Assembly (NCBI GenBank): GCA_017514235.1
Contig: JAFWKK010000018.1
Coordinates: 1-64,000, forward strand
Reading direction: 5' to 3'
DNA from: Kiritimatiellia bacterium
Lineage (GTDB): Bacteria; Verrucomicrobiota; Kiritimatiellia; RFP12; UBA1067
DNA length: 64,000 bases
Every line of letters starts with the position of its first letter. Positions within the stretch are counted from its first letter, which is position 1. A program made the translations under genes and the position numbers. Positions 10,813 through 59,065 of the stretch are shown piece by piece. Under the pieces are notes generated by a model. The model was not told the DNA's origin. It was given only the letters and a program-made list of their open reading frames with translations, and did no database searches.

Positions 10813-13800
10813 TCAACGGATAATGATATTGATCCCTTGCCGACGTTTCAACTGGAGCGCAACGCCGCCAGTCACGTTCGCCGTGCGCATCTCAAAGCCG
10901 GCAGGCAACGTGCAATCGGACACATTCACGCCATCGGCTGCGACAAGAACCGTCTGCCAGCCGCGCAGGCCGCTCATTTCGGAAGGCAGAACAACCGTAG
11001 CGCCAGAGAGATCGGCCGAACCCGACAGATTCACTGTCTTGCCACTTGCGAAGGACACTGCCGAACCGGCCTCCATCTCGAGCGACCCGAAATTCAGGTC
11101 GTCCGACATCGCCAGCGTGCCGTTTGCGGCGACCTTCAGCGTCACGTCGTTCGCAGTCGTGGAATTGACCGTCAGGGTACCGTTCGTTATGACGAGCGTG
11201 CCTTCGCCGGCCACATCCTCGTCTATCGTGGCGATGCCACCATCTGGATCGACCGTCAGCACCGAACCAGCCTCAATGCGGAGAGCCCGCTCATCAGCCG
11301 TGGTCGTGGTTGACACACCGCTCGCCGGGCCATACGTCCAGCCATCCGACACCTTGATCGTGGGCCTGCCGCGCACACCGATGGCAACAGCAGCGGCGGT
11401 ATTGTCGGCAGTGACCGTGCTCCAGGACGCCGGGCGCACCGTCAGGGTGCCACCGAACTCGACGCGCGACGACGCCGTCCCCGAACGCGTTGAGGCGATA
11501 TTCAGCGTGCCCTTGCCGCGGTAGCCCTGATTGACTCCGCCATAGAACGGAACGTTGATGTTCATCGTACCATTGATGAAGGAGGCCGGCGCGCATGCCG
11601 TAAGGCGATAGAAAGCCGCCGCGTCGCTGGTGAAAGTCAACGTCGCATTTTCCGCCACCCGGAACATGCCGCGCTTGGAAAGACCAATGTTCGCATTCTG
11701 CTTCATGAAGGTGAAATCGCCGCCGGGGATGACCGTAAACGAACTCAATATGGCCGGATATTGGCTCTCGAAGAAAGCAGAAAGCTTGGGTTGTGCAAAA
11801 GTAATACCGAAACGCACATCGCCTTTTATGTACAGTCCACCATTTGCATCGGCGCGGTTGAAACTGGCATTGTTTCCGCCAAGCCCGTTATCGGAAGAAA
11901 TGACGATCGGACCAAACCCCTGCGCATAGAGTTCAGGGGTCCACCAGCGGAGTGAAATTCCTATGACCTGCGGAAGCGCCGAAAAGTTCTGTATGGACTT
12001 GTTCATATTGTGCTGCACCCCGCCATAAAGGAAGTACGAGCCGGTGGCGTTGTCAAGGAACGTCCATCCGTTAATCGCCGCGCCACCGAAATCGGGCACG
12101 CTCGAACGCCGCATCTTGCCGAGCGCGTAGATGCGGCGGCTGGTCGCAGCGCCAAAGTAATGCGGGCCGGCCGTCTGCTCCATGTATTCTGGAGGGCTTG
12201 ACTTCACCCAGTTGTTGATGTTCGTGAAGAGGTTGCCGTCGCCGCCCTTCCATTCCCACTCCTTGCCGGCATACGTTCCCGCCGGATAGTCGCGGCAGAG
12301 CGAGATCTGTCCAAACTCATTGCGCAGCTGCCAGAGGCCCTGCTCGTTGCCAGTGACCTCAATCTGCGCAAGGAGAGTGTCCGGGAGCGCCTTCGACTCT
12401 AAGTCGTGCAGAATCGGGAAGGCTCCGTACGTAAAGCTCGTCGGGGCGGCAACGACGATCCGCGCGCTGCCGTCGATGCTCCAGTTCGCGGCGGAGACGG
12501 ACTGCGCCTGGGCGTTGAACTTGAGCACGGCACCGGCACCGAGCGAGAAGGTGTCGGCCACAAGCCGGGTCCATTCGTAATTCTGCCCCTGTGTGCCAAG
12601 GTAGCAGTCGCCGAGTTCGAGCGTCGTCCCCGCCGTGACCACCAACGTGTCTATGACATTGTAGGTAAATGCCGGATCAATCTGCGCCGTACCGCCTCCG
12701 GTGACGGTGAGTTCGAGGGAACTATTGCCCGAGGCGACACCACGCAGATAAACCTTGGCAACGGACGTGTCGATGGTCATCGGCCCGTAGCAGTAGAGAT
12801 ACGCATTGCAAACGCTGTGGGTCATGTCCGAAAGCGCGCTGATCCTCGTCGGCCCGTAGATGTTGTTCTGCCTGTTGCCAAACCAATAGAACGGGTAAGT
12901 CGAACCGCCCTGAAACACGATCTCGTCGAGGTCTATGTTTTGCTGGTTTGACCCAGTGTCCAGATTGCGGAATTGAAGCGTCGTGAGTGGTGCATCCGAC
13001 TTGATCGGCTCCGGTCCCGTCTTGCACACGATTCTGTAGTTGAGCGATCTCACCTTAGGATTCGCAAGCAGTCTCGTGATGAACGTATCGCCGTCGCAGT
13101 TAACATCGAAGTTGAACTTAATGTCGCCGCCGTCGATCACCACCTTGTCGTCGGACCCGACAGTCGGAACGTGGTTGAGCACGAACCGAGTGTCCTCTCC
13201 GACATGCAGTGCGGCCCCAACCGCAAGGACCATGTCCCCAAGCGTCAGCTCGCCGCTTGCAAAATCAAGCATTTCCGTGCCTCGGGAGAAATTGAGCTTG
13301 CCCATCGAAACGGAACCACCGTCTATCTTCATGTTGAACCGGCGCGTAGCATATCGGGAGTCGCCTTCGCCGAGCTGACCGCCGATGTGAAGAACCGCAT
13401 TGGTGCCGACCATGACGCTGCAATTGTCATCGTTCGGAGTGTAGCCATATCCAAGATTCCCGACGATCTCGACCGTGCCACGGTTCTCAATGCTCAATCT
13501 CGACTCGTCGTTCCACAGATGGTGAGTAGGTGCCTTGAACAGACCACCGTTTTTTACAACAAGCGGACAGTTGGCAAGAACACCGACTTCTCTACATTCA
13601 ACTGTCGGACCATCAATCGTGAGCCCTCTGAGGTAGCGGCAGAACACGTTCCTTGCAAGAGGATCATTGCTATCATAGGATGCACCTGTAAACGTCAGAC
13701 TTCCGGATCCGGTGAAAGTCACGCCCTCAAGCGAATACGTTCCGTTAATTCCAAGCCACAAGAGATCTGCAACATAGTCTGCATCAATCGAAACGGAATA

Positions 13801-14025
13801 CTCGATCCACCGGTTTGGCTTGCCCTCAAGCGTCCAGGCGTCGAAATAGGCATATTCGCCAGTAGTCGGAATATGCCCGAGCGACCAATGGCGAGCATCA
13901 CCCCAGCTTCCGTTGTAGTCTCCTTCCACGGCTTGCCATCTGTTAGTCGTCAGCGTGCCACCGAACACCGACAGACACACGGTGCCAAGCGTGACAACCG
14001 ACATTACAATCCATTTGCTTGTCAT
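10813..14025 (-). CDS. Giant secreted beta-repeat protein with C-terminal GINIIIR tail
   Basis: The 1070-aa protein has a Sec signal (MTSKWIVMSVVTLGTVCLSVFGG). The rest is low-complexity beta-helix-like sequence rich in G, T, N and S. It has autotransporter-passenger-like strands (VAGEGTLVITNGTLTVNS, AGSAVSFASGKTVNLSGSADLSGATVVLPS) and WKGGDGNLFTNINNW-type openings. There is no outer-membrane beta-barrel at the end. It stops in LKRRQGINIIIR, one of four related C-termini in this window. It is the first gene of the locus (GH2, GH42-like fusion, MFS follow) and divergent from the XylR-type regulator. I infer a cell-surface, glycan-facing role; the function is unknown. Confidence 0.8.
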   Translation of the reverse strand: MTSKWIVMSVVTLGTVCLSVFGGTLTTNRWQAVEGDYNGSWGDARHWSLGHIPTTGEYAYFDAWTLEGKPNRWIEYSVSIDADYVADLLWLGINGTYSLEGVTFTGSGSLTFTGASYDSNDPLARNVFCRYLRGLTIDGPTVECREVGVLANCPLVVKNGGLFKAPTHHLWNDESRLSIENRGTVEIVGNLGYGYTPNDDNCSVMVGTNAVLHIGGQLGEGDSRYATRRFNMKIDGGSVSMGKLNFSRGTEMLDFASGELTLGDMVLAVGAALHVGEDTRFVLNHVPTVGSDDKVVIDGGDIKFNFDVNCDGDTFITRLLANPKVRSLNYRIVCKTGPEPIKSDAPLTTLQFRNLDTGSNQQNIDLDEIVFQGGSTYPFYWFGNRQNNIYGPTRISALSDMTHSVCNAYLYCYGPMTIDTSVAKVYLRGVASGNSSLELTVTGGGTAQIDPAFTYNVIDTLVVTAGTTLELGDCYLGTQGQNYEWTRLVADTFSLGAGAVLKFNAQAQSVSAANWSIDGSARIVVAAPTSFTYGAFPILHDLESKALPDTLLAQIEVTGNEQGLWQLRNEFGQISLCRDYPAGTYAGKEWEWKGGDGNLFTNINNWVKSSPPEYMEQTAGPHYFGAATSRRIYALGKMRRSSVPDFGGAAINGWTFLDNATGSYFLYGGVQHNMNKSIQNFSALPQVIGISLRWWTPELYAQGFGPIVISSDNGLGGNNASFNRADANGGLYIKGDVRFGITFAQPKLSAFFESQYPAILSSFTVIPGGDFTFMKQNANIGLSKRGMFRVAENATLTFTSDAAAFYRLTACAPASFINGTMNINVPFYGGVNQGYRGKGTLNIASTRSGTASSRVEFGGTLTVRPASWSTVTADNTAAAVAIGVRGRPTIKVSDGWTYGPASGVSTTTTADERALRIEAGSVLTVDPDGGIATIDEDVAGEGTLVITNGTLTVNSTTANDVTLKVAANGTLAMSDDLNFGSLEMEAGSAVSFASGKTVNLSGSADLSGATVVLPSEMSGLRGWQTVLVAADGVNVSDCTLPAGFEMRTANVTGGVALQLKRRQGINIIIR

Positions 14026-14075
14026 GGTTTTGCCTTTCGCAGTAAGATTAAGACACTATTTGCCTTTTATTGCGA

Positions 14076-14105
14076 ATAATAGCAAAACAAGGGTTCTGAA
14101 ATCAA
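14076..14105 (-). promoter_or_regulatory. Promoter of the giant-protein/GH2 operon
   Basis: The minus strand shows TTGATT (14100-14105), an 18-nt spacer ending in TGC, and TATTAT (14076-14081). That is a -35 plus extended -10 with the same 18-nt spacing as several other promoters here. The predicted start near 14069 gives a leader of about 45 nt, with GAAAGG before the ATG at 14025. Confidence 0.65.
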
Positions 14106-14148
14106 TGCACAAATGGGGCATAATCTAACAACAAAAACATCACGATTC

Positions 14149-14157
14149 TGGTATAAT
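14149..14157 (+). promoter_or_regulatory. Extended -10 promoter giving a leaderless regulator mRNA
   Basis: TGG-TATAAT (TATAAT at 14152-14157) is followed by exactly 7 nt and then the ATG of the regulator at 14165. Bacterial RNA polymerase usually starts about 7 nt after the -10 box, so the ATG would be at or within a base of the mRNA 5' end. The -35 region is poor. The G-rich spacer (aaggggg) would lie upstream of the transcript start and so not act as a ribosome site. Confidence 0.6.
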
Positions 14158-14164
14158 AAGGGGG

Positions 14165-15370: not shown

Positions 15371-15395
15371 CTTCGACTGCGATTTTTAAGATAAT
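15367..15395 (+). promoter_or_regulatory. Promoter of the metallo-hydrolase gene
   Basis: TTGACT (15367-15372), a 17-nt spacer and GATAAT (15390-15395) form a good sigma-70-type pair. The -35 overlaps the stop codon of the regulator. The downstream leader carries GGAAGG before the ATG at 15426, so the gene can be expressed apart from the regulator. Confidence 0.6.
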
Positions 15396-30319: not shown

Positions 30320-33300
30320 ATGGGGAAAAAGACATGTTGTGTCGTGCTGGCGATGCTATTGTGTGCGGCGTTGTCCGTATATGGCCGCAATGGCGTCGAG
30401 TTCAAAAGCAAGGACAAGGCAACGCATTATTTTGACAATTCGGAGGAATGGCAATGCAGCGGCGTTTCAGGCGCAGTGACTCCAATGGCTGGCGACACGG
30501 TGCGAATGGCTGGACTCGGCAATGACTGTACCGTGTATCTGCGGAGCAACACGACTCTGGCCGCCCAGACGATCGAGTTCAAGGGTGGATATACATCGGC
30601 TCAGTCACGCAAATACGGCTTCCTTCGTTTTGCGGGCGACGGCTACACGTTCCTCATGCCGTCCCTCGCCGCCGATGCCGTGAACGCGGACGGCAACGCC
30701 TACACCTATGCCTCCACCCCGTTCAAGTTCGGCTGCTGCGTTTCCTCAACCGACCGTTGGTTCATGTACAACGATGAATTCTCGTCCACAAGTATCGCGC
30801 CGCTGAAGATGACGAATCCTGATTTTACATGCGGCATCACGGAGGACGGTATCAACTACATTACATTCACCAAAGGCGTATTCAACTTCTGCGACCCTGA
30901 GGGCGCATCCAATGGGAGTACGCTCCGCATTGGCGCATTGCAGAGCATACCATCCACAATTACAGTTGCCCCAGACGTGACGTTCAAGATGGCAAAGGGG
31001 CAGCTGTCGGTTGACAGTTCCGCCGCAAGTGTGACGACTCTGAAACATTCCGGAACATTCGAGACGGCGACGACATTCGTTCAAAAGGGCGGCACGTGGC
31101 AGATCGACGGCGGTACCCTGACGACACCGGAGTACATAATCAGCAACGGTGTTGTCTTTGCGACAAACGCTACGCTGACTGTCGGAGGCTATAGACAGCG
31201 CAACGGAACGGTGACGTTGGGACGTGGTACGACGCTGACAACCTCAAACATATCTGACAGCTACTTGCATTCTGCTGGCACACTGAACGTTGCGGAGGGT
31301 GCTTCAGTAAGCGTAAAGGGAGCCGTTTCCTTGTCGGGCTCGGCAACGCCGACGCTCTCAATCATGGGCGGTACGTTTACGGCGTCAGGCGGCATATTCG
31401 TCGGCAACGCTAGCACGAGCAACGGGCGGCTTCTTGTTTCTGGCGGACGATTTGACCTTGCAGGCGGCGACGGAGTAAACCTAAGATATGGAAACGCCGC
31501 CAGCCTCTTTGAGGTTTCCGGGGGCACGGCTGTGGTCTCGCGTGTGCGTTTGGCGCGTAACAACGGATCGGGCGACAAGACCATGCGCCAGACTGGCGGA
31601 TACCTTGACATCTCCAGCGCATCCTATGGTTATGTTTCATTCTTTGATGATGCCACGTCCCGCACAGGCACACACACGATTGAGCTGAATGGTGGAATTA
31701 CTGCATTGCGCTACATTGTGAACTCGAAGCCTTCGCTGACATCCCCGACTACTCAGCTCTTGGCAAACGGCGGCACGCTGAAGGCCTGTACAGCTCGCAA
31801 CTCGTCCTCTTCGCCGTTTATCAAGGATCTCAAGTACATGAAGTTGGGCAACAGCGGCCTTACGTTTGACACGGCAGGCAACAACATCTACGTTGAGCAG
31901 AACATGTCGAACCAGGGCGGCGCGTCCGGACTTCTGAAGAAGGTCGGCAACGGCACGTTGACCTACGTCGGAACTAGTGACGTAGCGAATACTGTTGTTG
32001 CAGGCGGCACCTTGCTTGTCTCCGGCGCGAGTTCGACGCTCTCCACGGCGCTCACAGTGACGAACGAGGCGACGTTCTCACTTGTCGGTTCCGCAACGGG
32101 CGCAACGCTTTCCGCGCTGACCGTGACGAATGCCTCGCTTGCGCTCGACGCGGGCGACGTCCTTGCGGTGAACGGACCGGTCTCCGTGAACAGGCTCACA
32201 ATCAACTGGTCGTCTGCGGCTCCGTCTGCAGCCACGCCGTTCCTCCGTGTTTCTGGCGAACTGGGCAACGAGACGAAAGCGGCCATCCGCAGCGCACTCT
32301 TCGCCAATGCGCTTTCGGACGGCACCCACGCCGCCTACACGTTCGACTACGATGCGGGCACGGGGCTGACGACGGTCTCGGCCCGTGTGGCCAATGACGA
32401 GCCGCTCTCCGATTCCGTGACATGGACGGGAACAGGCGCGTGGGCGACGCCTGCCAACTGGTCTGGCAATGCGGTGCCGACGGAGACGCAGATTGCATCC
32501 TTCACGTCCGCTTCCTCCGGAAAGACCGTCTCTGTCGCGGCGGGCGACGTGACCGGTGCATTGGCGTTTGGCGCGGACGGCTATACGCTTACAGGCATGG
32601 GGCCGCTTTCCATCGCCGGAGAGATCGGCGCGGCGCAGATTGCCGCGAACGCCGGCTCGAACACGATCGACGTGCCGGTGAATCTGTCCGTCCGGACCCC
32701 TGTGCAGGTAAATGCCGGTGCGACGCTTTCGATCACAAAAACGATTTCAGGCGGCAGTCTCGCAAAGACGGGTACGGGCAAACTGACGCTCGGCGCGGCG
32801 AACGCACTTGACGGCGGCATATTGTCCTCTGACGGCATCCTTGAAGCGGCCGCCGCCGGAGCGCTCGGCTCATCATCAGCAGATGCCGTTGCATTGAGTG
32901 GCGGCACGGTGCAGTTCGCCGGTGCCGGCGGTGCGGAGATGAATGTGCCCGCGAACGTCTCGGTGTCGGCGGCGAATGCATCCGACATCGTGGTGTTCAA
33001 GGCCGATACGGACACGTCGCTCGACAGGCTTAACGTCATGCAAGGCGCGTTCTGCAAACGCGGTACGGGAAAGCTGACGGTCTACGTTCCGGCGGCGACG
33101 TCGTACACGCTCGCAGTGGCCGGCGCCGGAACGGCGACAGGCGACAATACCGCCTGGTTCCCAAGCGGATCGGAAGGTATCGTATTCCCGGACGACGGCA
33201 CGGCACCTGACAGCGCATGTGGAAAATATCCAGGCTTTTCCGTCGCCGAGGGCGAGCTGGCGCTTGTCGGCGCGGGGGCGGATGCCGGTGTGTCAATGAT

Positions 33301-34507
33301 CGGCGCACGCGTTCTCATAGGACTCTATTCAAAGACATGTGCCGCGCAGCCGATGCTGACGGTGGACAATGTCTATCTCGACTGCCTCTCCAGCCATTGG
33401 TTCCTTGGCCATTCCGTTGGCGCGAACAACATCGCCGTGACGAATCCCGTCCTGCGAATTATCAACGGCGGCAAGGTGCGTATCACGTCGTCGCAGATCG
33501 GGTACAACAGCACGAGCTCACGGTCGTACGTAACGTTGGCGGCCACAAACGGCACATTCCTTGTGAGTGGATTCGATCATTATCTTACGCGCATGAACGG
33601 TTCTGTTGGCGGCGCGAGGGCGTACTACAAGTTCAAGGACTCCAACCTCTACCTTGACGGTACAGTCAACAAAATCGGCGGCGGCATCGACCTTGACTTC
33701 GACAACTCCGTGTTCAGCACATCTGCGGGCGGAACCGTCGCGCTGACGGGGGAATCGGATCGCCCGTGGGGCACGATGCTATTCCGCAACGGTTCGGTCT
33801 TCGCGTATGGCGGCTTCACGGAGAATTCCATCAACAAGAACTTGACCTTCGCGTTCGACGATTCGGAACTGAAACTCGATGCTTCTCGCGCATCTGCCAC
33901 GCTGGTGGCGTCCGGCAGCGGGAAGGTCCATTACGAGATGCGCGGCGCAGGCGCGGTCCTGAAGCCCGCAAGCGGCGCGACATACACCATCAACGCACCG
34001 CTGGAAGGCGAAGGCGGATTGGTTCTCGCCGGTGAGGGTACGTTGGCGCTAGCAAGCGGAAAATATGCTTTCTCCGGCACATGCGACGTGAGGTCTGGCA
34101 CGCTCGACCTTTCTGCCGCAGGTTCCATCTCCAATCCGCGTTTTGCAGCCACGACGGGAGGCGGAACCGTCTCTAGCGCGGTACTTAATCAGGCAACCGT
34201 CGCCATCGCTCTCTCCGACGCTTGGGAGAACACGAACGGCATCCCGACGTTCGCCAACTGCACGTTCTCAGGCAAGGTGAAGGTCGATGCCGGGCGCACT
34301 GCGTCAAACCCGCTGGCAATGCCGGCTGCATCCGCCAGCCAGCCTGTTGCAATAGCGCGGTTTTCGGGCACGACGGCGGCAGACCTTTCGGCATGGCGAC
34401 TTGTCAACACGGGCGACCGTATGGTTCGCGGCGAGTTCACCCTTGTGGACGGCACCGTCTATCTGACGCCTGCGCCGCCGTTCGGCGCGGTCATCATACT
34501 GCGCTGA
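30320..34507 (+). CDS. Giant autotransporter-repeat surface protein ending GAVIILR
   Basis: The 1395-aa protein has a signal peptide (KKTCCVVLAMLLCAALSVYG) and a strong AGGAGG ribosome site. The chain is a long predicted beta-helix. Passenger-associated repeats are visible (LLKKVGNGTLTYVGTSD near residue 545, SLAKTGTGKLTLGAANAL near 815) and there is a second domain start at SVTWTGTGAWATPANWSGN near 700. No outer-membrane beta-barrel follows; the end is PPFGAVIILR, matching the other giant proteins' tails. It sits between GH78 and a DUF4838 protein, so a surface glycan-binding or docking role is a fair inference. No enzymatic motif is seen. Confidence 0.82.
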   Translation: MGKKTCCVVLAMLLCAALSVYGRNGVEFKSKDKATHYFDNSEEWQCSGVSGAVTPMAGDTVRMAGLGNDCTVYLRSNTTLAAQTIEFKGGYTSAQSRKYGFLRFAGDGYTFLMPSLAADAVNADGNAYTYASTPFKFGCCVSSTDRWFMYNDEFSSTSIAPLKMTNPDFTCGITEDGINYITFTKGVFNFCDPEGASNGSTLRIGALQSIPSTITVAPDVTFKMAKGQLSVDSSAASVTTLKHSGTFETATTFVQKGGTWQIDGGTLTTPEYIISNGVVFATNATLTVGGYRQRNGTVTLGRGTTLTTSNISDSYLHSAGTLNVAEGASVSVKGAVSLSGSATPTLSIMGGTFTASGGIFVGNASTSNGRLLVSGGRFDLAGGDGVNLRYGNAASLFEVSGGTAVVSRVRLARNNGSGDKTMRQTGGYLDISSASYGYVSFFDDATSRTGTHTIELNGGITALRYIVNSKPSLTSPTTQLLANGGTLKACTARNSSSSPFIKDLKYMKLGNSGLTFDTAGNNIYVEQNMSNQGGASGLLKKVGNGTLTYVGTSDVANTVVAGGTLLVSGASSTLSTALTVTNEATFSLVGSATGATLSALTVTNASLALDAGDVLAVNGPVSVNRLTINWSSAAPSAATPFLRVSGELGNETKAAIRSALFANALSDGTHAAYTFDYDAGTGLTTVSARVANDEPLSDSVTWTGTGAWATPANWSGNAVPTETQIASFTSASSGKTVSVAAGDVTGALAFGADGYTLTGMGPLSIAGEIGAAQIAANAGSNTIDVPVNLSVRTPVQVNAGATLSITKTISGGSLAKTGTGKLTLGAANALDGGILSSDGILEAAAAGALGSSSADAVALSGGTVQFAGAGGAEMNVPANVSVSAANASDIVVFKADTDTSLDRLNVMQGAFCKRGTGKLTVYVPAATSYTLAVAGAGTATGDNTAWFPSGSEGIVFPDDGTAPDSACGKYPGFSVAEGELALVGAGADAGVSMIGARVLIGLYSKTCAAQPMLTVDNVYLDCLSSHWFLGHSVGANNIAVTNPVLRIINGGKVRITSSQIGYNSTSSRSYVTLAATNGTFLVSGFDHYLTRMNGSVGGARAYYKFKDSNLYLDGTVNKIGGGIDLDFDNSVFSTSAGGTVALTGESDRPWGTMLFRNGSVFAYGGFTENSINKNLTFAFDDSELKLDASRASATLVASGSGKVHYEMRGAGAVLKPASGATYTINAPLEGEGGLVLAGEGTLALASGKYAFSGTCDVRSGTLDLSAAGSISNPRFAATTGGGTVSSAVLNQATVAIALSDAWENTNGIPTFANCTFSGKVKVDAGRTASNPLAMPAASASQPVAIARFSGTTAADLSAWRLVNTGDRMVRGEFTLVDGTVYLTPAPPFGAVIILR

Positions 34508-41625: not shown

Positions 41626-42729
41626 TCATACCAGGTCTTCCATGAAGATGAAGCGGTAGCCGCGCTCCTTCAGCGTGCGGGCCATCAGCATCTCGCGCTC
41701 CATGTAGTCGGGCTGGTAGAGCAAGTAGCCCTTGAAGAAGTACTGCTCGTGGTTGCCATAGCCGACGAAGTCGCAGCCACGCGTCGCTTCGAGGTCACGC
41801 GGAATTCCCTTGAGCGGATGCAGATTGAGCGCGCTGAACGGCGCCGTGCAGGAGTTCTTGAAGCGCATCCCGGTTTCGGGGTCGTAAAGGTACTTGTTCT
41901 CCTTGGCGATTGCGGAGATTTGCGCGTTGGTGACGTGGTTGTAACCGCAAAGCGAGGCGGATATCGCCACGTTGTTCGAGACACGAGTGTATAGCGCGGT
42001 CTCCGGCTTTCTGTTGTTCATCAGGCGGAAGTCGTGCCCGTACGGGAGAATCGAGCTGTCGCCGTTCCATTCAAAGCGGTTGCCGCGCGAGACGACCATG
42101 ATCTTTATTCCGCCGTCGGCAAGCGCCCGGACTCCATCCTTCGACATCGGCACCCAGTGCGGAATCGTGAAGCGCGCGAACATGTTGTCGCCGGCGAAGC
42201 GGTCGACCTCGCCTCGCATCATCGAAAGGCATTTCGCGACATCCTTGTAGTCGGCGCTTATCCACGGATAGTCTGGGAACTCCTGCAGCGAGTGGAGCCC
42301 GAACTTGATCCAGTCGGCGTTGTCCTGGAACTCGGCCTTGTAGTCCACCGGCATGTCGGCAAGCGAAAACTCGTCCATGCCGTAGAAGAAGTCGGTACGG
42401 TAGAAGAGGTTGAACTGCACCTTCAGCCCCGTCGCGTCATGTATCTTCTTGAAGCCGCCGAGATACGGCGTATCGAAGATGGACTTCGGCTTCATGCGGG
42501 CGATGTCCCTGAGGAACCAGATGCAGTCGTCCACGAACTTGCAGGCGTTCTTGCCAGCGAGCGCGCTGTCCTTCACGACGGCGTTCGGCATTGCCGGCGG
42601 CAGCTCCTTAAGCGCCGCGAACTTGTCCTTGGTGAGCTTCTCGCTCACCGATTCCGTGCGAGTCGCGCACCCGGCCGCCGCCAGCGCAACGCTCCCCGCC
42701 CCCATCCTCAGGAATTCCCTTCTGTCCAT
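41626..42729 (-). CDS. Tat lipoprotein, polysaccharide deacetylase-like (paralogue 3)
   Basis: The protein has 367 aa. DRREFLRMGAGSVALAAAGC is a Tat signal with lipobox. The body resembles a NodB/polysaccharide-deacetylase barrel: FVDDCIWFLRDIA near residue 65, FGLHSLQEFPDYPW near 140, PHWVPMSKDG near 190 and GNHEQYFFKGY near 325. Metal-ligand assignment is uncertain, so catalysis is not assured. It is the more divergent relative of the two proteins encoded at 47578 and 51715. The ribosome site GGAGG lies 8 nt before ATG. The DUF4091 gene follows by 1 nt. Confidence 0.62.
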   Translation of the reverse strand: MDRREFLRMGAGSVALAAAGCATRTESVSEKLTKDKFAALKELPPAMPNAVVKDSALAGKNACKFVDDCIWFLRDIARMKPKSIFDTPYLGGFKKIHDATGLKVQFNLFYRTDFFYGMDEFSLADMPVDYKAEFQDNADWIKFGLHSLQEFPDYPWISADYKDVAKCLSMMRGEVDRFAGDNMFARFTIPHWVPMSKDGVRALADGGIKIMVVSRGNRFEWNGDSSILPYGHDFRLMNNRKPETALYTRVSNNVAISASLCGYNHVTNAQISAIAKENKYLYDPETGMRFKNSCTAPFSALNLHPLKGIPRDLEATRGCDFVGYGNHEQYFFKGYLLYQPDYMEREMLMARTLKERGYRFIFMEDLV

Positions 42730-47577: not shown

Positions 47578-48738
47578 TCAGGCCCAGTCAATCTTGTCTT
47601 CGATGAACATATACGAGTAGCCGGCGTCGTGGACGGCCTTGCAGGCGGCCAGCAGCTTCTCGCGCGAGTCGGGCTGGTAGGCGAAGTAGTCCTTGAACCA
47701 GTATTCCTCGTGTGTCGCGTGGACGAGGAATTCCTTGTCCAGAACCCGGGCCATGCGCGCGGGGATGTCCTCAAGCCGATAGAGGTTGAGGCACGGAGCG
47801 CCGCAGCCAAACGTGGTGAAATTGCATCCGGTCGCCTTGTCGTACAGCCAGTTGTACGTGCCGCGGGTGACATTCACCTGTTCCGGCAGAAGATGGTTGT
47901 AGCTGCGTGCGGCGATGCTGATGTCGTCGCCGCCTCCCGCGCGCCAGGACAAGGCAGCCTCCGGCTTGCGGCCGTTCTCGATCCTCATGCCGTGACCGTA
48001 GGGGAGGAGCGTCCGGTCTCCGTTGTATTCGTAACGCCTGCCCGCCGAACAGTAGATTGCCGTCGCACCGCAGTCCTTGAGTGCGATGCAGCCCTCTTTC
48101 GACATTGATCCCCAATGCGGCGTAACGGCCTTTGCAAACATCCCAGGGCCGGCGAAGCGCTCGACCTCGCGCGTGATTGCGTCCCACGTGAACTTCACGT
48201 CATCGTAGCTGGCGTTGATCCACGGATAGTCGGGGAACTCCGAATAGGAGTGGAACCCGAACCGGAGCCAGCCTTTCGCCGCCTGAAACTCGTCGCGCCA
48301 CGTGGCGGGCATGTCCCTTAGCGTGAACTCCGCGCCACGCGCGCCGTAGTAGGCGTCGTTGCGGTAGAAGACGTTGAACTGCGCCTTGAGACCGTATTTC
48401 TCGTGCGCCTCCTTGAAGGCCGCGAGCAGAGGGTGACTCCAACAGGACTTCGGACGCTGTTGCGCCAGATCGCGGAAGATGAAGAAGACGTCGTCAAGGT
48501 AGAACGCGGCGCGTTTGCCCGGAATGTTCTTCGTGCGCCGGACTTCAACGTCGGTGATCGTAGGCCCGAGCTCCTTCAATGACTCCAAGACAGCAAGCTT
48601 GCGCGCCTGCTGTTCGGGTGATTCGGCACGGATGTTCCCGTCGCCGCCGGGAACGCGTCGTTCCGTTGCGCATCCGACCATGGACAGGGCGGCAAGCCCC
48701 ATTCCTCCAGTGCCCTTCAGGAACTCACGCCTGTCCAT
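47578..48738 (-). CDS. Tat lipoprotein, polysaccharide deacetylase-like (paralogue 1)
   Basis: The protein has 386 aa. DRREFLKGTGGMGLAALSMVGC is a Tat signal with lipobox. The core FYLDDVFFIFRDL near residue 75, FGFHSYSEFPDYPW near 155 and THEEYWFKDYFAYQPDS near 330 resemble a deacetylase-like barrel with Asp-Asp and His clusters. It is close to identical over long stretches with the protein at 51715, clearly a recent duplicate. The ATG at 48738 has GGGAG upstream; longer forms add a non-signal tail. The M20 gene follows after 6 nt. Catalysis is unproven. Confidence 0.62.
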   Translation of the reverse strand: MDRREFLKGTGGMGLAALSMVGCATERRVPGGDGNIRAESPEQQARKLAVLESLKELGPTITDVEVRRTKNIPGKRAAFYLDDVFFIFRDLAQQRPKSCWSHPLLAAFKEAHEKYGLKAQFNVFYRNDAYYGARGAEFTLRDMPATWRDEFQAAKGWLRFGFHSYSEFPDYPWINASYDDVKFTWDAITREVERFAGPGMFAKAVTPHWGSMSKEGCIALKDCGATAIYCSAGRRYEYNGDRTLLPYGHGMRIENGRKPEAALSWRAGGGDDISIAARSYNHLLPEQVNVTRGTYNWLYDKATGCNFTTFGCGAPCLNLYRLEDIPARMARVLDKEFLVHATHEEYWFKDYFAYQPDSREKLLAACKAVHDAGYSYMFIEDKIDWA

Positions 48739-48843
48739 TCGTTGCTTTCTCCCTCTTGTCAACAACAATCCTGTTCGCTGCGGAGCCGTGCGAAGTCGCT
48801 CGTCGTTGTCGCTATCGGTCTCATTGCGCAACCGCCGAACCAC

Positions 48844-51597
48844 TCAGCGTATCATGATGAACATGCCGTTCGGCTCATGGCGTATGCTGATGTTGTCCAC
48901 CAAGAGCGCCCCCGGCGCATCCGCGCGCCACGGCATGTAAGACGGCGCCCTGCCGCCGATGATGTGGATGTGCGAGATCGGCTCGTTGAAGTTGAAGTGC
49001 AGATTGTTATAGCTGTCAAGAAGCGTTCCGTCCGCCGTTGCAAGCGTCGGTTGCGTTACCCCCATGTCATACGCCGCCCAATTCCACCTCTTCGCGCTCA
49101 TGTCTGCCTCGACCTTCACGCGAATCCAGTGCCCGACATAAGCACCGTCGATGTGCTTCGCCTTCAATGAGCCGTCTCCGCCAGCACCGGTACCATCCTG
49201 ATAGATGATGGCCGTTCTATTATGTACGCCTGTTTTGACGTCTTCCATTCCTGCCGATCCGCTCTTGCCCATCTGCATACCAGTACGTATCGTGCGGTGC
49301 GAATGGCAACGGTAGGCGTTGACCTTCCACGTCGATGCAGACGCGAGTCCGCCATTGCCGAACTGGAACCAGAAATAATCCATCCGGGATGTCCAGAACA
49401 CAGGTATGCGCACATCGTATTGAGCATACAACTTGCCGGATCTTATGTTTCGCCCAATCGGCTGCACAATGGAGAATATATCGTCGCCTGAATAAAGCGA
49501 CGGGTTGGCGCCGGCAACACACGACGAACCAACGTATGTAGGCGCCGCGGCCCAGCCATCCTCACCATATTCTGGACGGTCAATATACTTCGACTTCATC
49601 ATCTTCAGACTCTTGCGCTTGAAATGGCGAGTCGTCGTGGAGAAGTCGTTCTGGAACACAAGTTCCCAACCATCGTTTCCATCGCCCTTCCAGCAACGGA
49701 TGTTGTCAACGAGAACCGCATAGCCCGCGTCGGAATCGGGATTGTTCCACATGACGAAACCATACGCGCCGATTCCTAGGCCGTGCTTTTTGAGTCCCGC
49801 TTCATACAATCCATTTGTCACGCTGGAAACTAGCGCCGTCGCTGGATCGCTCGAATCGAATCCGCCAGGAGAGCTAGGCGCCGACGACCCAACGTCATAG
49901 ACATGGAACCAATAATTGGTTTGGTCGAGATCAATGAAGAGCTGAATCCTGTACCAATGGTTAGACGTGAACTTGGACGCCCAGTTTGGATTGTATGTAC
50001 CGTAATGGGAGGTTGCGGTCGAGTTCCAGATGGAATATGTCTTAACAGGCGCATCCTTGTCCCCACCGCCAGATGCCGAGCAAATGCCAAGCGTCAGAGG
50101 ACGGTCGCCGTAGGCGAATGCATATCCCTCGTCATAGCCCTTGTTGTTGGTTAGGATGATGGACGAACGGGCCGTGCCAGCGTTCCACGCCTTCGGCATG
50201 CGCATATCCCACTCCATCTTCACAAGGCCGTTGGTGATGTCTTCGCACATCGGTTGAATAATCTGGCAGTATTTTGTCAGCATGCCTACGCGGTTCGCGC
50301 CGTTTGTCGTGAGCGCGATGGCACCAACGAAACCTCCTGTCTGACCGACGAAACGCCACCCGTCGATACCGGCCTTCTGCACCACGTCAACTACGCCATT
50401 CGACGCCGCCGGCAGATATGGCTTGCCTGTCGTCGAACCGACATTCGACTTGCGTATAAGCTCGGCTGGATAGGTGAAAACCGAAGTCTCTGACTGCTCC
50501 GAAAGCGTGTAGGTGTGGGATGTCGAACCGCTTCCGTCGATGGTGCGACGCATGGACTTCGCAAAGTCGTTGCGGTAACATTCCTCGAAATACTGTGCCG
50601 ACGGCGCCTTCCATGCCACCTTGATGTTGTCGTACTTGTAGGCGGCATCATCGTCGAATCCCGACTCGCCGTAGTACGCCTTTGTGTCGATGTATGCGAA
50701 GCGAATGCCGATTCCGCTTATGCCGCCCGTCGCGGCGTCCAGTTCCTTCACGAACAGGAGATTGCTGCCTGACCACTTGGGCGTGCCCGACGGCGTTTCG
50801 TCCATCGAGATGCGCGATGCGCCGAGATCGTAAACCTCGAAACTCGACCGAGAAGCGTCAATGTCGCACGTCACGTAATAACGGTACCAATTTCCTCCAA
50901 CCGGCCTTGTGGTCGCATAGCTGTAGAATGTGCGCGTTCCATCGGCATCGCCAGCCTTGCGCCAGCCGCCGGAGAATGTTGACGAAGACAACCCCAGCTC
51001 GATAGGTATCTGGTCATAGGAATAATTGTCGTTCTTCATGTCGTTCTCCGTGACAAGACGGAGCCACGAGAAAATCTTGCTGGTCGTCGAAACCGGCTGG
51101 CGAATGTCAAACTGCCATTTGATGACGCCATTCGTGAAGACGTTGTGCAGGGGATGATGCACAATGATCGCAATATTCGAGGCAGGGTGCCCCGCATCCA
51201 CCGCTTCCGCAGAGTGAACCAGCGCAGGATCGTCCTCGTCCGTCACGGAGGTGCGGCCTCTGTTAAGGAGGTGATTGCCCTGCTGTCTATTCTTCTTGAA
51301 CCATCCATCCTGCTGCGAATAGGGAACCGTACCGGATGCCGTTCCCTGCCACGGATAGATGCCGGTGAGCGTATTGAACGAGTCCGTGTGGTCATAGTCG
51401 TACGCGAGCGGCCCGCCCTTGTCGTACTTATACTCCGCCCATACGGAGCTAAGCTTTTCGGCGCTTGTGCGAATCGCAAAGTCGTTCTCATAGACGAGTT
51501 CCGCGGAATCGGCCGACGTCACAAGGCCAAAACTCACGGCGACAGGTGCAAGAATCATGCCACAACCCTTGGCAACTGACAGTTTCACCATACGCAT
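48844..51597 (-). CDS. Giant surface protein of three LamG-like modules ending GMFIMIR
   Basis: The 917-aa protein has a signal (VAKGCGMILAPVAVSFGLVTSADSA). Three homologous modules follow, each opening with a [YF]xNDF motif (ELVYENDFAIR, EECYRNDFAK, ELVFQNDFST) and holding a D-x-R-x-P strand (QFDIRQPVS, EWDMRMPKAW, QYDVRIPVFW). This fits concanavalin-like beta-sandwich glycan-binding domains. The C-terminus is EPNGMFIMIR, one of four related tails. A ribosome site (AAGGAG) and promoter lie upstream. It is flanked on both sides by near-identical deacetylase-like genes. No catalytic motif is seen. Confidence 0.8.
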   Translation of the reverse strand: MRMVKLSVAKGCGMILAPVAVSFGLVTSADSAELVYENDFAIRTSAEKLSSVWAEYKYDKGGPLAYDYDHTDSFNTLTGIYPWQGTASGTVPYSQQDGWFKKNRQQGNHLLNRGRTSVTDEDDPALVHSAEAVDAGHPASNIAIIVHHPLHNVFTNGVIKWQFDIRQPVSTTSKIFSWLRLVTENDMKNDNYSYDQIPIELGLSSSTFSGGWRKAGDADGTRTFYSYATTRPVGGNWYRYYVTCDIDASRSSFEVYDLGASRISMDETPSGTPKWSGSNLLFVKELDAATGGISGIGIRFAYIDTKAYYGESGFDDDAAYKYDNIKVAWKAPSAQYFEECYRNDFAKSMRRTIDGSGSTSHTYTLSEQSETSVFTYPAELIRKSNVGSTTGKPYLPAASNGVVDVVQKAGIDGWRFVGQTGGFVGAIALTTNGANRVGMLTKYCQIIQPMCEDITNGLVKMEWDMRMPKAWNAGTARSSIILTNNKGYDEGYAFAYGDRPLTLGICSASGGGDKDAPVKTYSIWNSTATSHYGTYNPNWASKFTSNHWYRIQLFIDLDQTNYWFHVYDVGSSAPSSPGGFDSSDPATALVSSVTNGLYEAGLKKHGLGIGAYGFVMWNNPDSDAGYAVLVDNIRCWKGDGNDGWELVFQNDFSTTTRHFKRKSLKMMKSKYIDRPEYGEDGWAAAPTYVGSSCVAGANPSLYSGDDIFSIVQPIGRNIRSGKLYAQYDVRIPVFWTSRMDYFWFQFGNGGLASASTWKVNAYRCHSHRTIRTGMQMGKSGSAGMEDVKTGVHNRTAIIYQDGTGAGGDGSLKAKHIDGAYVGHWIRVKVEADMSAKRWNWAAYDMGVTQPTLATADGTLLDSYNNLHFNFNEPISHIHIIGGRAPSYMPWRADAPGALLVDNISIRHEPNGMFIMIR

Positions 51598-51714: not shown

Positions 51715-52869
51715 TCAGTTCCAGTCGATCTTGTCTTCGATGAACATGTACGAATAGCCGGCATCATGCACTGCCTTGCAGGCGGCCATCAGCTTTTCGC
51801 GCGAGTCGGGCTGGTAGGCGAAATAGTCCTTGAACCAGTATTCCTCGTGCGTTGCGTGGATGAGGAACTCCTTGTCCGCGACTTGGGTCATCCGCACGGG
51901 TATGTCCTCCAACCGGTAAAGGTTGAGGCACGGCGCACCGCAGCCGAACGTCATGAAGTTGCAGCCTGTCGCATTGTCGTGAAACCAGTTGTACGTGCCG
52001 CGCGTCAGCTTCACCTGCTCCGGAAGCAGATGGTTGTATCCGCAAGCCGAGACGCTGATGTCGTCGCCGCTGCTCGCGCGCCAGAACATCGCCGTCTCCG
52101 GTTTGCGGTTGTTCTCGATCCTCATGCCGTGGCCGTAGGGAAGAAGCGTCCTGTCGCCTGCGTATTCGTATCGCTTGCCGGACGAGCACCAGATCGCCTT
52201 CACGCCGCAGTCCCTGAGCGCGATGCATCCCTCTTTCGACATCGGCCCCCAATGCGGCGTGACGGCCTTCGCGAACATGCCGGGACCGGCGAAGCGCTCG
52301 ACCTCGCGCGTGATCGCATCCCACGTGAACTTCACATCGTCATAGCTGGCGTTGAGCCACGGATAGTCGGGAAACTCAGAGTAGGCGTGGAAGCCGAAGC
52401 GGAACCAGTCCTTTGCCGCCTGGAACTCGTCATGCCACGTGTCGGGCATGTCCCTGAGCGTAAACTCCGCGGCGCGTGCGCCGTAGTAGGCGTCGTTGCG
52501 GTAGAACACGTTGAACTGCGCCTTGAGCCCGTACTTCTCGTGCGCCTCCCTGAAGGCCGCGAGCAGGGGGTGGTTCCAGCATGACTTTGGACGCTGTCGG
52601 GCCAGGTCGCGGAAGATGAAGATGACGTCGTCAAGATAGAACGCGGCGCGTTTTCCCTGAATGTTCTTCGTGCGGCGAATCTCGAGATCAGTGAGTGTCG
52701 GCCCAAGCTCCTTCAGCGACTCCAGGGCGGCAAGCTTGCTCGCCTGGCGTTCTGGCGATTCCGTGCGGATGGTCCCTGCACTGCCGAGCCGGCTTTTCCC
52801 TGCTGCGCATCCAGCAAGGGCCATGGCCGCGCCTCCGGCGCCAATACGCAAGAATTCTCTCCTGTTCAT
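51715..52869 (-). CDS. Tat lipoprotein, polysaccharide deacetylase-like (paralogue 2)
   Basis: The protein has 384 aa with the Tat lipoprotein signal NRREFLRIGAGGAAMALAGC. The same barrel motifs as paralogue 1 appear (FYLDDVIFIFRDLARQRPKS, FGFHAYSEFPDYPW, THEEYWFKDYFAYQPDS). By eye the mature parts are roughly 85 percent identical. It lies 18 nt after the GH36-like gene. The two copies differ mostly in the linker after the lipobox, as expected after recent duplication. Confidence 0.62.
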   Translation of the reverse strand: MNRREFLRIGAGGAAMALAGCAAGKSRLGSAGTIRTESPERQASKLAALESLKELGPTLTDLEIRRTKNIQGKRAAFYLDDVIFIFRDLARQRPKSCWNHPLLAAFREAHEKYGLKAQFNVFYRNDAYYGARAAEFTLRDMPDTWHDEFQAAKDWFRFGFHAYSEFPDYPWLNASYDDVKFTWDAITREVERFAGPGMFAKAVTPHWGPMSKEGCIALRDCGVKAIWCSSGKRYEYAGDRTLLPYGHGMRIENNRKPETAMFWRASSGDDISVSACGYNHLLPEQVKLTRGTYNWFHDNATGCNFMTFGCGAPCLNLYRLEDIPVRMTQVADKEFLIHATHEEYWFKDYFAYQPDSREKLMAACKAVHDAGYSYMFIEDKIDWN

Positions 52870-55105: not shown

Positions 55106-55132
55106 TGGAACTTTACCGAGCCCCTCTCGAAC

Positions 55133-58100
55133 TCATCTAATCAACATCATCGTGCCGATCGGCGGCGGAAGCATCTTCAACTTGTGGTAGTCAAACGTCA
55201 GCCAATTGTTCGCCACCGCCGTGTCATAGACCCACTTCAGTTCGTTCAATCCAGGCTTGACGCTTTCCGCCGGAATCTCGACGCGCACCTTGCCAACTGC
55301 CGCATTCTCACTCGACCACACCGTCTCGCCGTTGAACTCAAGATGGATGGGATGCGTGTTGCCCGACTTGACGCTGTCCATGTAAGTGTCGTACCTGTAG
55401 GCACACTGCCCTGCGCTCGTCTTCGGCACGTCGAATAGAATCGTCAGCGTATTGTAGGTCGTGGTGACGGCGCGCTGCGCATTTTTATAGATAGGATCGC
55501 CCGCGATGACGACGGAGGATACCCCCTGCCCCTGCGCAGTCATGTCGCCAGACGTATTGTCGATCTTGCCGATCTGCCAGGAGCCGGCGAGCGACAGCGC
55601 GTCGAACGAAAGCGTCCCCGTGCAGCCTTCGGGGCGCGTGATGGCAATCGTGATCTTACCGTTCGCATCGCGCGTCACATGGCTGGCGCGAAGCGGGATC
55701 GCGCGCTTGCTCTCATCCATGAGGTCGAACTCTCCGACCGCCGCGCCGTTCACCGTCACCGTGACTGGGCAAGCCGCTCCTACGCCATCGAAGAGCGGTA
55801 CGATCTCAAGAACGCGCGGCAGCCCTTCGCTCTCCGCCGGAATCGGTGCGACAAGCGTCAACGTACGATCCGCCGCCGTCAGCGACTTCTTCATCGCCTG
55901 CCATTTGTCCGTGGACACGTCAAACGGATCGGCCGTCTCGTACCACGATCCGCCGAACTCGCTCGCGCTGCCGTTCTCCACGCCGACGTTGAACGTGCCA
56001 CCGTAGCGGTCGGCCATCACAGACCACATTTCGTTCTCGGTCAGGAGCCTGTCCCATGCCTTCAGCGCGGCGTAGTAGCCGCGGAACGCCTTGCGGACGT
56101 ATTCGGGATCGGTATTTGTGCCGGAAGTCTCCGCTCCAAGCCTGATTGCATGGGCCTTGTCAATCGACCTGAACCTCGGAAGCTTGCATTCGTCACCCAA
56201 GTGCTTGTGCTTCAGCACGGGATAGCCGAAGATCCCGTTGCTTCCGAGCGCGGGCGTCTGGCAGAACCAGATATCGACATTGGAGAACTCGACATTCGTC
56301 GGGCTCGGATAGACCGAGACGAAGCAATCGACCCAGCTGTTGGTCGTTATGTAGAGGTCGGTTCCGTAGTCCACGACCGGCACCTCCTTCGGAATGAATA
56401 CGTTCAGGAAGCCCTTGTTGTCATTGACGCCGCCGCCGGACGCCGTCCTGATGCGCAGCGTGAAACCTTGGCCGACACTTGCCCAGGTCGTGTATCCGTT
56501 GCAGAAGATGCAGCTGTCGTTCGCAATCCCGGGCACGAGCGGTCCCTCCCAGAGGAAGCGCACATAGAACGTGGCTACAGGTGCGTCCACATAGGTGTAG
56601 GCAAGTTCCCAGCGCGACAAACCGAACTTGCCTGTATCCTCATCGTCCTTCTTCTGCGTGAGGTAGATGCACGGCTGCGCGGCGTTCGTCGTGAACGGCG
56701 TCATCGGAGAAGCGACGTCCATGAACTTGTACATGGGCCGGTAGTCGTTGAAACCATTCGGCTGGGAATACCAGCACGTGTAGTAGGTGTTGCTCGACGG
56801 CGAACCGGCATGAAGGGCGTCTCCTACATGGTATCCGGAACTCGTGCCAGCCATGAGCGCACCGTCCTCCACGTCGCGGATGTCGAGGTCGAGGATCATG
56901 CCGTCCAGCGCGTTGCTGCCGGGTTTGCGGAACACCGCCGTCAGCGCGACGGGGCGCGTCGCGACAACGCCGATATCCGGCGTGAGGACCGACCCCTTGA
57001 CGATGGCGTCGATGTCGCCCGTCCACCTTTGGAATACGTAGCCTTCATCAGGCTGCGCCACAAAGCCCGTCATCTCGGAACCGTCATGATTGACCGTTGA
57101 CGAGACGGATGCCTCGAACGATCCGACGCGCTTCAGCGCGACCTTGCCGCCCGTCGTGGCGGTGGCGGTCATCGCGATCATCAGCGTATCGTCGGCGGCG
57201 AAGGAGTAGCCGCCGCTGAGCGTGTAGCTGGACGCGCTCGCACCGTTGAAGCGGATTGCATCGACCGCCGCATTGACCTTCACCTCGTCTTCCGTCAGCA
57301 CGCGGTTGTAGAGGCGGAACGCATTGTACGTGCCGCAAAACGCCATGGCGGGGCGCGTATTGTCGCCACCGATCACGCTGGCGCATATGTTGGTGATCGT
57401 GCCCGAGAGATTGGCCACTTGGGTTTGCGAGGCCGCGCCGTTTTTCCAGACCGTCTGCTGCTTCGTGTCGCTCAAGAACGACATGGACGCCCATTCGTCG
57501 GTCACCACCTTCATGTCTGCGAAATACTTGTCTCCGGCACTGCCGCTGATATAATAGTAGTAATAGCGCGTGAGCCCTGTCTTGTCGACACCGCTGGCGC
57601 TAGTGTTGTGTTCAAGCGAGAACCCTCTTCTGTCATACTGCCCGAAGAAGCACTGCCGCACGGTATGGCGCGAAGGCTTCACTGCATACTGCATCGTGAA
57701 CACCTTGGAAGCCGTCGTCACGGATACACTCGTCGCAGAGCCGTTCCCTGAGGGAACCGTCATCGGGTAGCAGTCCACAGCATTCGCCCAGCCGTTCTCC
57801 GTCCACGTAACGTCACTGGCCTTGGTTGCGTCGTTGCCGTTGCCGGTGAGGTCAACCCACGTCGTAGCGCTGCCATCATGCGCCGCGTCATGACCGACGT
57901 TGTTGATGCCGTCGTACTGCGCCACAAGCCCAGGCACGACGTACGAGCGCGATGAGAGCCCCCTTCTTTGTTTCTTGAACACAGCCGTCAGCAAAACACC
58001 CTTTTCAGAAGTGACGGTAATGGTCGACGAAAGATACGAACCGACTGCGATTGCAGAGTCATTGCCTTCCCAACGATAGAACACATAACCAGAATCCGGC

Positions 58101-59065
58101 ACCGCAGCGAAAGTCGCTGTCATCGCACCGCTCCCATAGCTCGCCGTGACACCGGTCACCGATTCCGCCGCCACGCCATCGCCGGCCCTGACCTTGCCGC
58201 CTTCGCCAGCGACAGCTATGAGATTCTGCTGCAATGTGCCGTCCGCCGCAAACGTATAGCAGGCCAACTCCGGATAGTCGCTCCAGTCCGCATTGTTGTA
58301 GCGGACGGCATCGACCGCCGCGTTGATCTTGATTTCCTCCTCTGGCAACACACGGTCGTAGAGACGAAACGCATTGTAGGTGCCGAAGAATGCCATAGCT
58401 TCGCGATCGTTCTCGCCGCCAATGACGCTTGCGCAGGCGGTGTTGAGATTTTCGGAGGCAGACGAGAAATGGCGTTCGCCCCAATCCTCAAGGTTCTTGT
58501 AGAAGTGGGCGTCCTTCAGTCCGTTATCCGCCGTCAGCGTGATGGATCCCCACTCGTCGGTCTTCAAGGCACTGGACTTGCTCGAAAGAGACGTGTCGAG
58601 CACCCTGGAATAAAGGCGGATGCAGTCGGTGATGGACGTTCCCCTATGCTCGATGCCTAAGGAACGAGACGCGCTGTATTGGCTGAAGAAACTTGCGCGC
58701 CCGCTTTGCACGCTCTTGCGTACGGGCTTGCAGGCGAACTGAGCCGTGAAGGTGCCCGTTCCGGTGACACGAGAAAGGCCAAAGCCTACAGAAATCGGCT
58801 TGCCTGCAACGCCGTTCGTCCAGCCGTTTTCGCACCAAACGACATTCGCGCCGACCGTGCCGTCGTTGCCGTTGCCGGTGAGATCGGCCCATGTCGTCGC
58901 GCTGTCGCTGTGCGCCGCATCGTGCCCGACGTTGTTGATGCCGTCGTATTGGGCGACGAGGCCTGTTGGAACATACGACCGCGAGGTGATTGCAGCCGAT
59001 GCCGCCCCGACGCACAAAGACACGCCGAAAAGCACCGTTGCTTCCTTCAGAATCGAACCTGCCAT
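55133..59065 (-). CDS. Giant LamG-type surface protein ending GTMMLIR
   Basis: The 1310-aa protein has a signal (FGVSLCVGAASAA). Two homologous LamG-like modules occur at about 27-260 and 370-620; each opens with SRSYV, then GLVAQYDGINNVGHDAAH, and each is followed by an InlB/Ig-like strand set (GYVFYRWEG, GYVFQRWTG). A third, different ConA-like module (about 720-1040) and a C-terminal beta-sandwich follow. The end is PPPIGTMMLIR. It heads the largest glycan locus here, with a near-consensus promoter and an AAGGAGG ribosome site, suggesting high expression. The likely role is binding glycans or matrix at the surface. Confidence 0.82.
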   Translation of the reverse strand: MAGSILKEATVLFGVSLCVGAASAAITSRSYVPTGLVAQYDGINNVGHDAAHSDSATTWADLTGNGNDGTVGANVVWCENGWTNGVAGKPISVGFGLSRVTGTGTFTAQFACKPVRKSVQSGRASFFSQYSASRSLGIEHRGTSITDCIRLYSRVLDTSLSSKSSALKTDEWGSITLTADNGLKDAHFYKNLEDWGERHFSSASENLNTACASVIGGENDREAMAFFGTYNAFRLYDRVLPEEEIKINAAVDAVRYNNADWSDYPELACYTFAADGTLQQNLIAVAGEGGKVRAGDGVAAESVTGVTASYGSGAMTATFAAVPDSGYVFYRWEGNDSAIAVGSYLSSTITVTSEKGVLLTAVFKKQRRGLSSRSYVVPGLVAQYDGINNVGHDAAHDGSATTWVDLTGNGNDATKASDVTWTENGWANAVDCYPMTVPSGNGSATSVSVTTASKVFTMQYAVKPSRHTVRQCFFGQYDRRGFSLEHNTSASGVDKTGLTRYYYYYISGSAGDKYFADMKVVTDEWASMSFLSDTKQQTVWKNGAASQTQVANLSGTITNICASVIGGDNTRPAMAFCGTYNAFRLYNRVLTEDEVKVNAAVDAIRFNGASASSYTLSGGYSFAADDTLMIAMTATATTGGKVALKRVGSFEASVSSTVNHDGSEMTGFVAQPDEGYVFQRWTGDIDAIVKGSVLTPDIGVVATRPVALTAVFRKPGSNALDGMILDLDIRDVEDGALMAGTSSGYHVGDALHAGSPSSNTYYTCWYSQPNGFNDYRPMYKFMDVASPMTPFTTNAAQPCIYLTQKKDDEDTGKFGLSRWELAYTYVDAPVATFYVRFLWEGPLVPGIANDSCIFCNGYTTWASVGQGFTLRIRTASGGGVNDNKGFLNVFIPKEVPVVDYGTDLYITTNSWVDCFVSVYPSPTNVEFSNVDIWFCQTPALGSNGIFGYPVLKHKHLGDECKLPRFRSIDKAHAIRLGAETSGTNTDPEYVRKAFRGYYAALKAWDRLLTENEMWSVMADRYGGTFNVGVENGSASEFGGSWYETADPFDVSTDKWQAMKKSLTAADRTLTLVAPIPAESEGLPRVLEIVPLFDGVGAACPVTVTVNGAAVGEFDLMDESKRAIPLRASHVTRDANGKITIAITRPEGCTGTLSFDALSLAGSWQIGKIDNTSGDMTAQGQGVSSVVIAGDPIYKNAQRAVTTTYNTLTILFDVPKTSAGQCAYRYDTYMDSVKSGNTHPIHLEFNGETVWSSENAAVGKVRVEIPAESVKPGLNELKWVYDTAVANNWLTFDYHKLKMLPPPIGTMMLIR

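Follow-up and report, generated by a model that had tools for sequence, protein, structure and literature searches.

A short C-terminal tail on large, putatively exported proteins of Kiritimatiellae as a candidate address tag

Four window proteins that end alike

We analyzed 64,000 nucleotides of a Kiritimatiellia genome (assembly GCA_017514235.1, contig JAFWKK010000018.1, positions 1 to 64,000; this whole stretch is the window), in which four large proteins end in a similar nine-residue peptide, here called the tail. Residues are counted back from the stop, the last one being −1. The four proteins and their tails are as follows (aa, amino acids).

10813..14025, minus strand: 1070-aa tail-bearing protein with a signal-peptide-like N-terminus, without a Pfam match at E ≤ 0.1
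10813..10842, minus strand: tail RQGINIIIR plus stop, C-terminus of the 1070-aa protein
30320..34507, plus strand: 1395-aa tail-bearing protein with weak PATR/autotransporter strand repeats (E 0.015 and 0.0083, below curated cut-offs)
34478..34507, plus strand: tail PFGAVIILR plus stop, C-terminus of the 1395-aa protein
48844..51597, minus strand: 917-aa tail-bearing protein with ConA/laminin-G-like domains
48844..48873, minus strand: tail PNGMFIMIR plus stop, C-terminus of the 917-aa protein (residues 909–917), without secondary structure in an AlphaFold2 model
55133..59065, minus strand: 1310-aa tail-bearing protein with LamG_3 and InlB B-repeat domains
55133..55162, minus strand: tail PIGTMMLIR plus stop, C-terminus of the 1310-aa protein, of which the homolog P0125 was modelled

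All four C-termini, first pointed out in an initial annotation of the window, are real, as read from the genes themselves. The leading Pro of the pattern given there (position −9) is present in three of the four and absent from RQGINIIIR. Tail codons differ between the genes as stated, with the Arg encoded by CGT, CGC, CGC and AGA, and the proteins are indeed dissimilar elsewhere, the best blastp alignment reaching 29% over 92 residues (E 0.002–0.024) between two repeat-rich ones. Also as described, the tail has no membrane-length segment, containing neither a membrane helix nor a folded domain.

Two broader statements had to be narrowed. Genes were flagged as exported by a crude signal-peptide rule, and of the 22 window genes so flagged four have the tail, the other 18 lacking it. 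That the giant signal-peptide proteins carry the tail was too strong a claim: four do, whereas the flagged 1546-aa glycosidase-like protein at 4254–8894 and the 804-aa LRR_5/InlB-repeat protein at 369–2783 do not. The latter has a signal-like N-terminus that the rule did not flag, and since it lacks the tail, not every large surface-type protein uses it. Similarly, the absence of the tail from enzymes holds for the flagged window genes and fails in general, two C10-peptidase-domain proteins of family f3 being tail-bearing.

Near the tail-bearing giants, the window also encodes three proteins of 367–421 aa with similar C-termini (41626–42729, 47578–48843 and 51715–52869), which may represent a family paired with the giants. 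Two of them end in VHDAGYSYMFIEDKIDW[AN], and the products of 41626–42729 and 51715–52869 have a twin-arginine-like N-terminus, M[DN]RREFLRxGAG.

Enrichment, conservation and carriers

Two motifs were used for counting (h, hydrophobic). The DNA pattern, G-x-x-[IM]-h-h-R-stop with its reversal as a control, is blind to tails ending in AGA or AGG, such as the fourth one of the window, and to Leu or Val at −4. It matched 15 times in the 3.96-Mb genome of the window (G000), compared to two matches for the control; thirteen of the 15 lie at the end of open frames with 80 codons or more, the other two being a 17-codon frame and a TGG. The relaxed motif, G-x-x-h-x-h-[RK] at the C-terminus, was counted over 316 gene calls in a 462-kb sample (the window and a further 398 kb of its genome), in which tail density is biased upward because the sampled contigs were picked for containing matches. 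Here it ends 18 of 165 flagged genes and none of the 151 others (Fisher p 6e-6); without the window, the counts are 14 of 143 and 0 of 138. The 18 occurrences at the exact C-terminus stand against a mean of 0.19 over 93 upstream offsets, and in the comparison with shuffled C-termini that had been called for, matches averaged 0.15 and never exceeded two in 2000 shuffles. Among flagged proteins of at least 800 aa in the sample, 12 of 28 have the tail. The tail thus exceeds chance and, far from being equally frequent on presumed cytoplasmic ends, was found in the sample only on flagged genes and only at the exact C-terminus.

Counting from the stop also reveals which residues are kept. We compared 86 records of the 917-aa family (window protein included) and 119 of the 156 found for the 1310-aa family, and in both sets column entropies are lowest at −7, −4, −2 and −1. 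Gly occupies −7 in 77 of 86 and 80 of 119 sequences, respectively (Pro is second in the latter family, with 23), and Arg or Lys occupies −1 in 74 of 86 and 111 of 119; positions −4 and −2 are mostly Ile, Leu or Val in both families. More variation is seen at −8 to −10 and at −3 than at these core positions, and the linker drifts. These position-specific entropies indicate selection on the peptide, as had been proposed. Position −3 can be polar (Thr, Ser), which would fit a strand with a single conserved face. In sub-families of the 1310-aa homologs (among P0142–P0148 and P0157–P0166) the Gly at −7 is replaced, often by Pro (PGKPFTMVIR, PPTVIVVK), and these are possibly further dialects of the tail. 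For the protein at L139, only three homologous records were available, the query included; all have tail-like ends and none has another anchor.

Structure prediction places the tail beyond the folded part of its carriers. For the 917-aa protein, AlphaFold2 (73 sequences; mean predicted local distance difference test score, pLDDT, of 92) puts the last strand at residues 899–908, followed by residues 909–917 without structure (last block pLDDT 59); laminin-G, calreticulin and lectin-like folds are among the best PDB neighbours of this model. P0125, a homolog of the 1310-aa protein with 915 residues, was modelled from 46 sequences (mean pLDDT 87); its last strand spans 893–904 and residues 910–915 fall under pLDDT 50. 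Because the tail is unstructured past the last strand in both models, it is not the final strand of those domains; and with carrier domains unrelated to each other, it is not the last strand of one shared domain either.

The range of carriers is wide. Ten tail proteins from the G000 sample comprise seven without a Pfam match, the rest having PATR, PMP-repeat/DUF5123 or LamG domains. Of ten tail proteins scanned from G160, a genome of a different family within the class, five have choice-of-anchor Q (choice_anch_Q) and one has PMP repeats. Family f3 contributes one InlB-repeat protein and the two C10 peptidases. One tail carrier has PF00754, which we take to be F5/F8 type C. In the G160 proteins L126 and L142, the choice_anch_Q domain ends 11 residues before the stop. 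More broadly, 29 of 30 choice_anch_Q loci were readable, of which 15 reached a stop and 14 ran past the fetched end; five of those 15 have 11–13 residues past the domain. PPPAGTLILIR (G160) and GPVAGLIMLFR (G000) meet the strict core of the tail, while FVPSGTVLLIN (G055), WFSVLRPTSILLR (G058) and SLPTSLLFIVQ (G187) fail it; in f10 genomes, at least 126 residues follow the domain. As choice_anch_Q by its NCBI name precedes different anchors, this arrangement supports, without proving, an anchoring role of the tail.

Distribution and dialects across genomes

The tail occurs in several families of the window's order and in another family of the class. At least one DNA-pattern match, chance matches included, was present in 47 of 59 genomes (the window's own and relatives). 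Matches outnumbered the control by 40 to 1 in G055, which belongs to the same order, and by 30 to 2 in G160, the strongest excess among 212 genomes drawn from the phylum, many others of which gave counts near the control by eye. Frames of at least 80 codons are ended by 28 of 30 fetched loci in G055 and 27 of 30 in G160. A stricter DNA pattern returned at least 119 loci from a genome collection; among the matches listed, 44 of 55 loci that are unlabelled or labelled as Planctomycetes–Verrucomicrobia–Chlamydiae (PVC) end frames of at least 240 codons, compared to 0 of 64 loci from other phyla, where the longest frame has 185. Homologs of window proteins with a named source, few in number (two in one search, three in another), were called Kiritimatiellae. 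CAMBQN010000007.1 (L210; L320), a contig of a metagenome-assembled genome labelled Akkermansia muciniphila, is probably mislabelled, and G048 of the window's order is the suspected origin. At L052:4854-5162 (minus strand), a 102-aa frame encodes a protein of ~85 aa with a signal-like N-terminus and the tail TPVTGVCIIVR, possibly a minimal substrate; it lies directly upstream of two mutually similar genes for exported proteins.

Genomes differ in the less conserved positions of the tail. At −6, 22 of 28 G055 tails and 22 of 27 G160 tails have Thr, compared to 2 of 24 in G000 (nominal p about 1e-7). A scan of all open reading frames in 800 kb of G053, a genome of family f3, revealed five frames of at least 150 codons that meet the core; four of them, on three kinds of protein, read P-G-[FYW]-R-L-x-x-R, and the fifth resembles a membrane segment. 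Since this dialect escaped the DNA pattern, absence of the pattern is not absence of the tail, above all in GC-rich genomes. In G053 and G077 (GC 0.69 and 0.66) gene calls look partly antisense, so the test based on gene calls was replaced there by one on frames of at least 200 codons. Genome-specific wording on unrelated proteins suggests a co-evolving reader, possibly a receptor, although some tails may be copies arising by duplication.

A candidate address tag, its alternatives and known signals

The tail is found on unrelated folds, is position-conserved across homologs and varies between genomes at its less conserved positions. Judged from these sequence patterns, it is probably a minimal C-terminal address tag of large Kiritimatiellae proteins, which lends support to the sorting or anchoring signal envisaged in the initial annotation; the role itself is inferred. 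The tag would take the form G(−7)-x-x-h(−4)-x-h(−2)-[R/K](−1)-COOH and would act after Sec export of the protein. A putative dedicated envelope receptor would bind it as a short beta-strand by strand addition, with alternating hydrophobics after a Pro/Gly hinge and the basic last residue as a fixed contact, and would then bring the protein to, or anchor it at, the cell surface. Strand addition and the basic-end contact are suggested by the sequence pattern, by the disorder of the tail in isolation and by analogy to the ends of type IX secretion system (T9SS) C-terminal domains (CTDs) and to the beta-signal of the beta-barrel assembly machinery (BAM); a surface destination is suggested by the binding/adhesin-like domains and by choice-of-anchor Q directly before the tail in some proteins. 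If this holds, nine residues would assign many large binding/adhesin-like proteins of gut and sediment Kiritimatiellae to one sorting route, a secretion or anchoring machine would await discovery by co-occurrence, and the dialects (Gly-Thr in G055 and G160, Gly-aromatic-Arg-Leu in G053) would make reader–signal co-evolution directly testable.

Several observations weigh against an address tag. No reader gene was found, nor was a family co-occurring with the tail identified, and inspection by eye of the genes around sparse tails and around the G000 exosortase offered no recurrent candidate. Many homologs deviate, the strict core being present in only 68 of 86 and 75 of 119 sequences, and only two of the five short ends after choice_anch_Q (15 loci with a stop) have it. 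Among frames of at least 200 codons, neither the 200 kb covered in G171 nor the 162 kb in G077 yielded a tail. The crude export rule left 7 of 20 G160 tail genes from fetched loci unflagged, and tail genes that are paralogs in one genome do not count as separate events, so that the dialect test is inflated.

It is very unlikely that exosortase reads the tail as a shortened PEP-CTERM-like signal (P-x-G, a short hydrophobic stretch and a basic end). The order of motif, hydrophobic stretch and basic end does mimic the tripartite PEP-CTERM layout described in PMC3237569, and exosortase matches are found nearly everywhere, whether or not tails were detected (56 of 59 relatives and 53 of 56 class genomes), including tail-rich G055, G160, G004, G030 and G136. 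PEP-CTERM matches are few in families f1, f2, f4, f5 and f6 of the order (0–8 per genome, with 16–32 in f3), and their median is lower in tail-rich genomes (2 vs 8, p 0.007). However, this inverse trend, with Spearman coefficients of −0.55 within the order and −0.32 over 77 genomes, lacks significance when families are compared (rho −0.22, p 0.26), and pattern bias confounds it. A membrane-length segment is missing from the tail; none of the four window proteins is among those with C-terminal hydrophobic segments or matches TIGR02595 at E ≤ 1; and in G053, with one exosortase match, 14 PEP-CTERM-like ends and four tails within the same 800 kb sit on different proteins. G192, without an exosortase match, has a tail-ending gene (GTKGTVIFFR; L314:7258-9138, plus strand), interrupted by in-frame stops. 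The idea that the tail replaces PEP-CTERM was dropped once the four tails of G053, a member of PEP-CTERM-rich f3, turned up unseen by a DNA pattern that demands Ile or Met at −4. At L146:12971-17407 (plus strand) of G053, a canonical PEP-CTERM gene is followed by a tail-bearing protein, whose 1232-codon frame opens 13 bases later and whose likely start lies about 0.2 kb inside the frame.

A stand-alone BAM-type beta-signal that engages the Omp85 protein BamA directly is unlikely. Gly at −7 and the hydrophobic residues at −4 and −2 coincide with the consensus polar-x-Gly-x-x-[aromatic/hydrophobic]-x-[aromatic/hydrophobic] given in PMC10945584, the polar position −9 of which is often Pro in the tail, and Omp85 was matched in all 28 genomes examined (once in 18, twice in 10). 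Yet four readable BamA-like C-termini lack a basic end (FSIGFE in G049, WVGYGF in G160, FLIGYGF in G198 and SFGYPF in G065), and soluble folds rather than barrels precede the tail in the models. As five of six f3 genomes have a second Omp85 match, such a match does not mark pattern-rich genomes; tail-rich G055 has two strong ones. An extra Omp85 paralog, tried as a candidate reader, showed no clear correlation with tails in the 28 genomes. We consider it highly improbable that the tail ends a T9SS-like signal and that a divergent type IX machine reads it. In favour are the tail-bearing C10 peptidases of f3 and the dependence of T9SS CTDs on their last C-terminal residues ("motif C-t."), as reported in PMC11285876. 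No 70–100-residue CTD precedes the tail, which hangs unstructured from other domains, and Por_Secre_tail gave no match among the tail proteins scanned; SprA had no match in 32 genomes, with no control genome matching either, so that its absence is not shown. There is also a very low probability that the tail is no address at all and serves as a last strand that helps the protein to oligomerise or to remain stable, or as a handle recognised by a chaperone or protease in the periplasm. PDZ-type proteases could plausibly bind a C-terminus that is short, exposed and prone to beta structure. Against a tail that is no address stand the strong conservation of Gly and of a basic last residue on folds unrelated to each other, its confinement to large flagged genes in the sample, the dialects between genomes and the position directly after a choice-of-anchor domain in some proteins.

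No curated sorting-signal model matched the tail ends scanned, and no description of the tail was found in titles and abstracts of the literature searched, which comprised openly licensed papers only. Among known systems, PEP-CTERM/exosortase (TIGR02595, TIGR02602) resembles it in being C-terminal, on unrelated exported proteins, many per genome and uneven between lineages; the tail differs in having 7–9 residues instead of about 24, without a transmembrane helix, Pro-Glu-Pro or an Arg-rich end, and in coexisting with PEP-CTERM proteins in G053. GlyGly-CTERM/rhombosortase is likewise a lineage-limited C-terminal tag recognised by comparative genomics (PMC3237569), but it has a membrane helix, and its model (TIGR03501) had no match at E ≤ 1 among the tail proteins scanned. 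The type IX CTD (PorSS) shares the importance of its extreme C-terminal residues for export (PMC11285876), but is a folded domain of 70–100 residues, whereas the tail is an unstructured appendage of 9–11 residues in two models. Autotransporters (type V) end in a beta-barrel translocator; Pfam scans of the four window and ten further tail proteins found no autotransporter or other barrel domain, and only PATR or PMP repeats in three of these fourteen. The BAM beta-signal shares the Gly-x-x-hydrophobic-x-hydrophobic spacing, but the tail is not a last barrel strand, continues into Arg or Lys and sits on soluble folds. Because the defining features tested fail, we file the tail under none of PEP-CTERM, GlyGly-CTERM, T9SS CTDs, autotransporters and outer-membrane barrels. 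We tentatively suggest that it may instead be a third architecture of C-terminal sorting signal, a bare seven-residue strand with an arginine end and lineage dialects, served by a putative outer-membrane export or anchoring machine of Kiritimatiellia.

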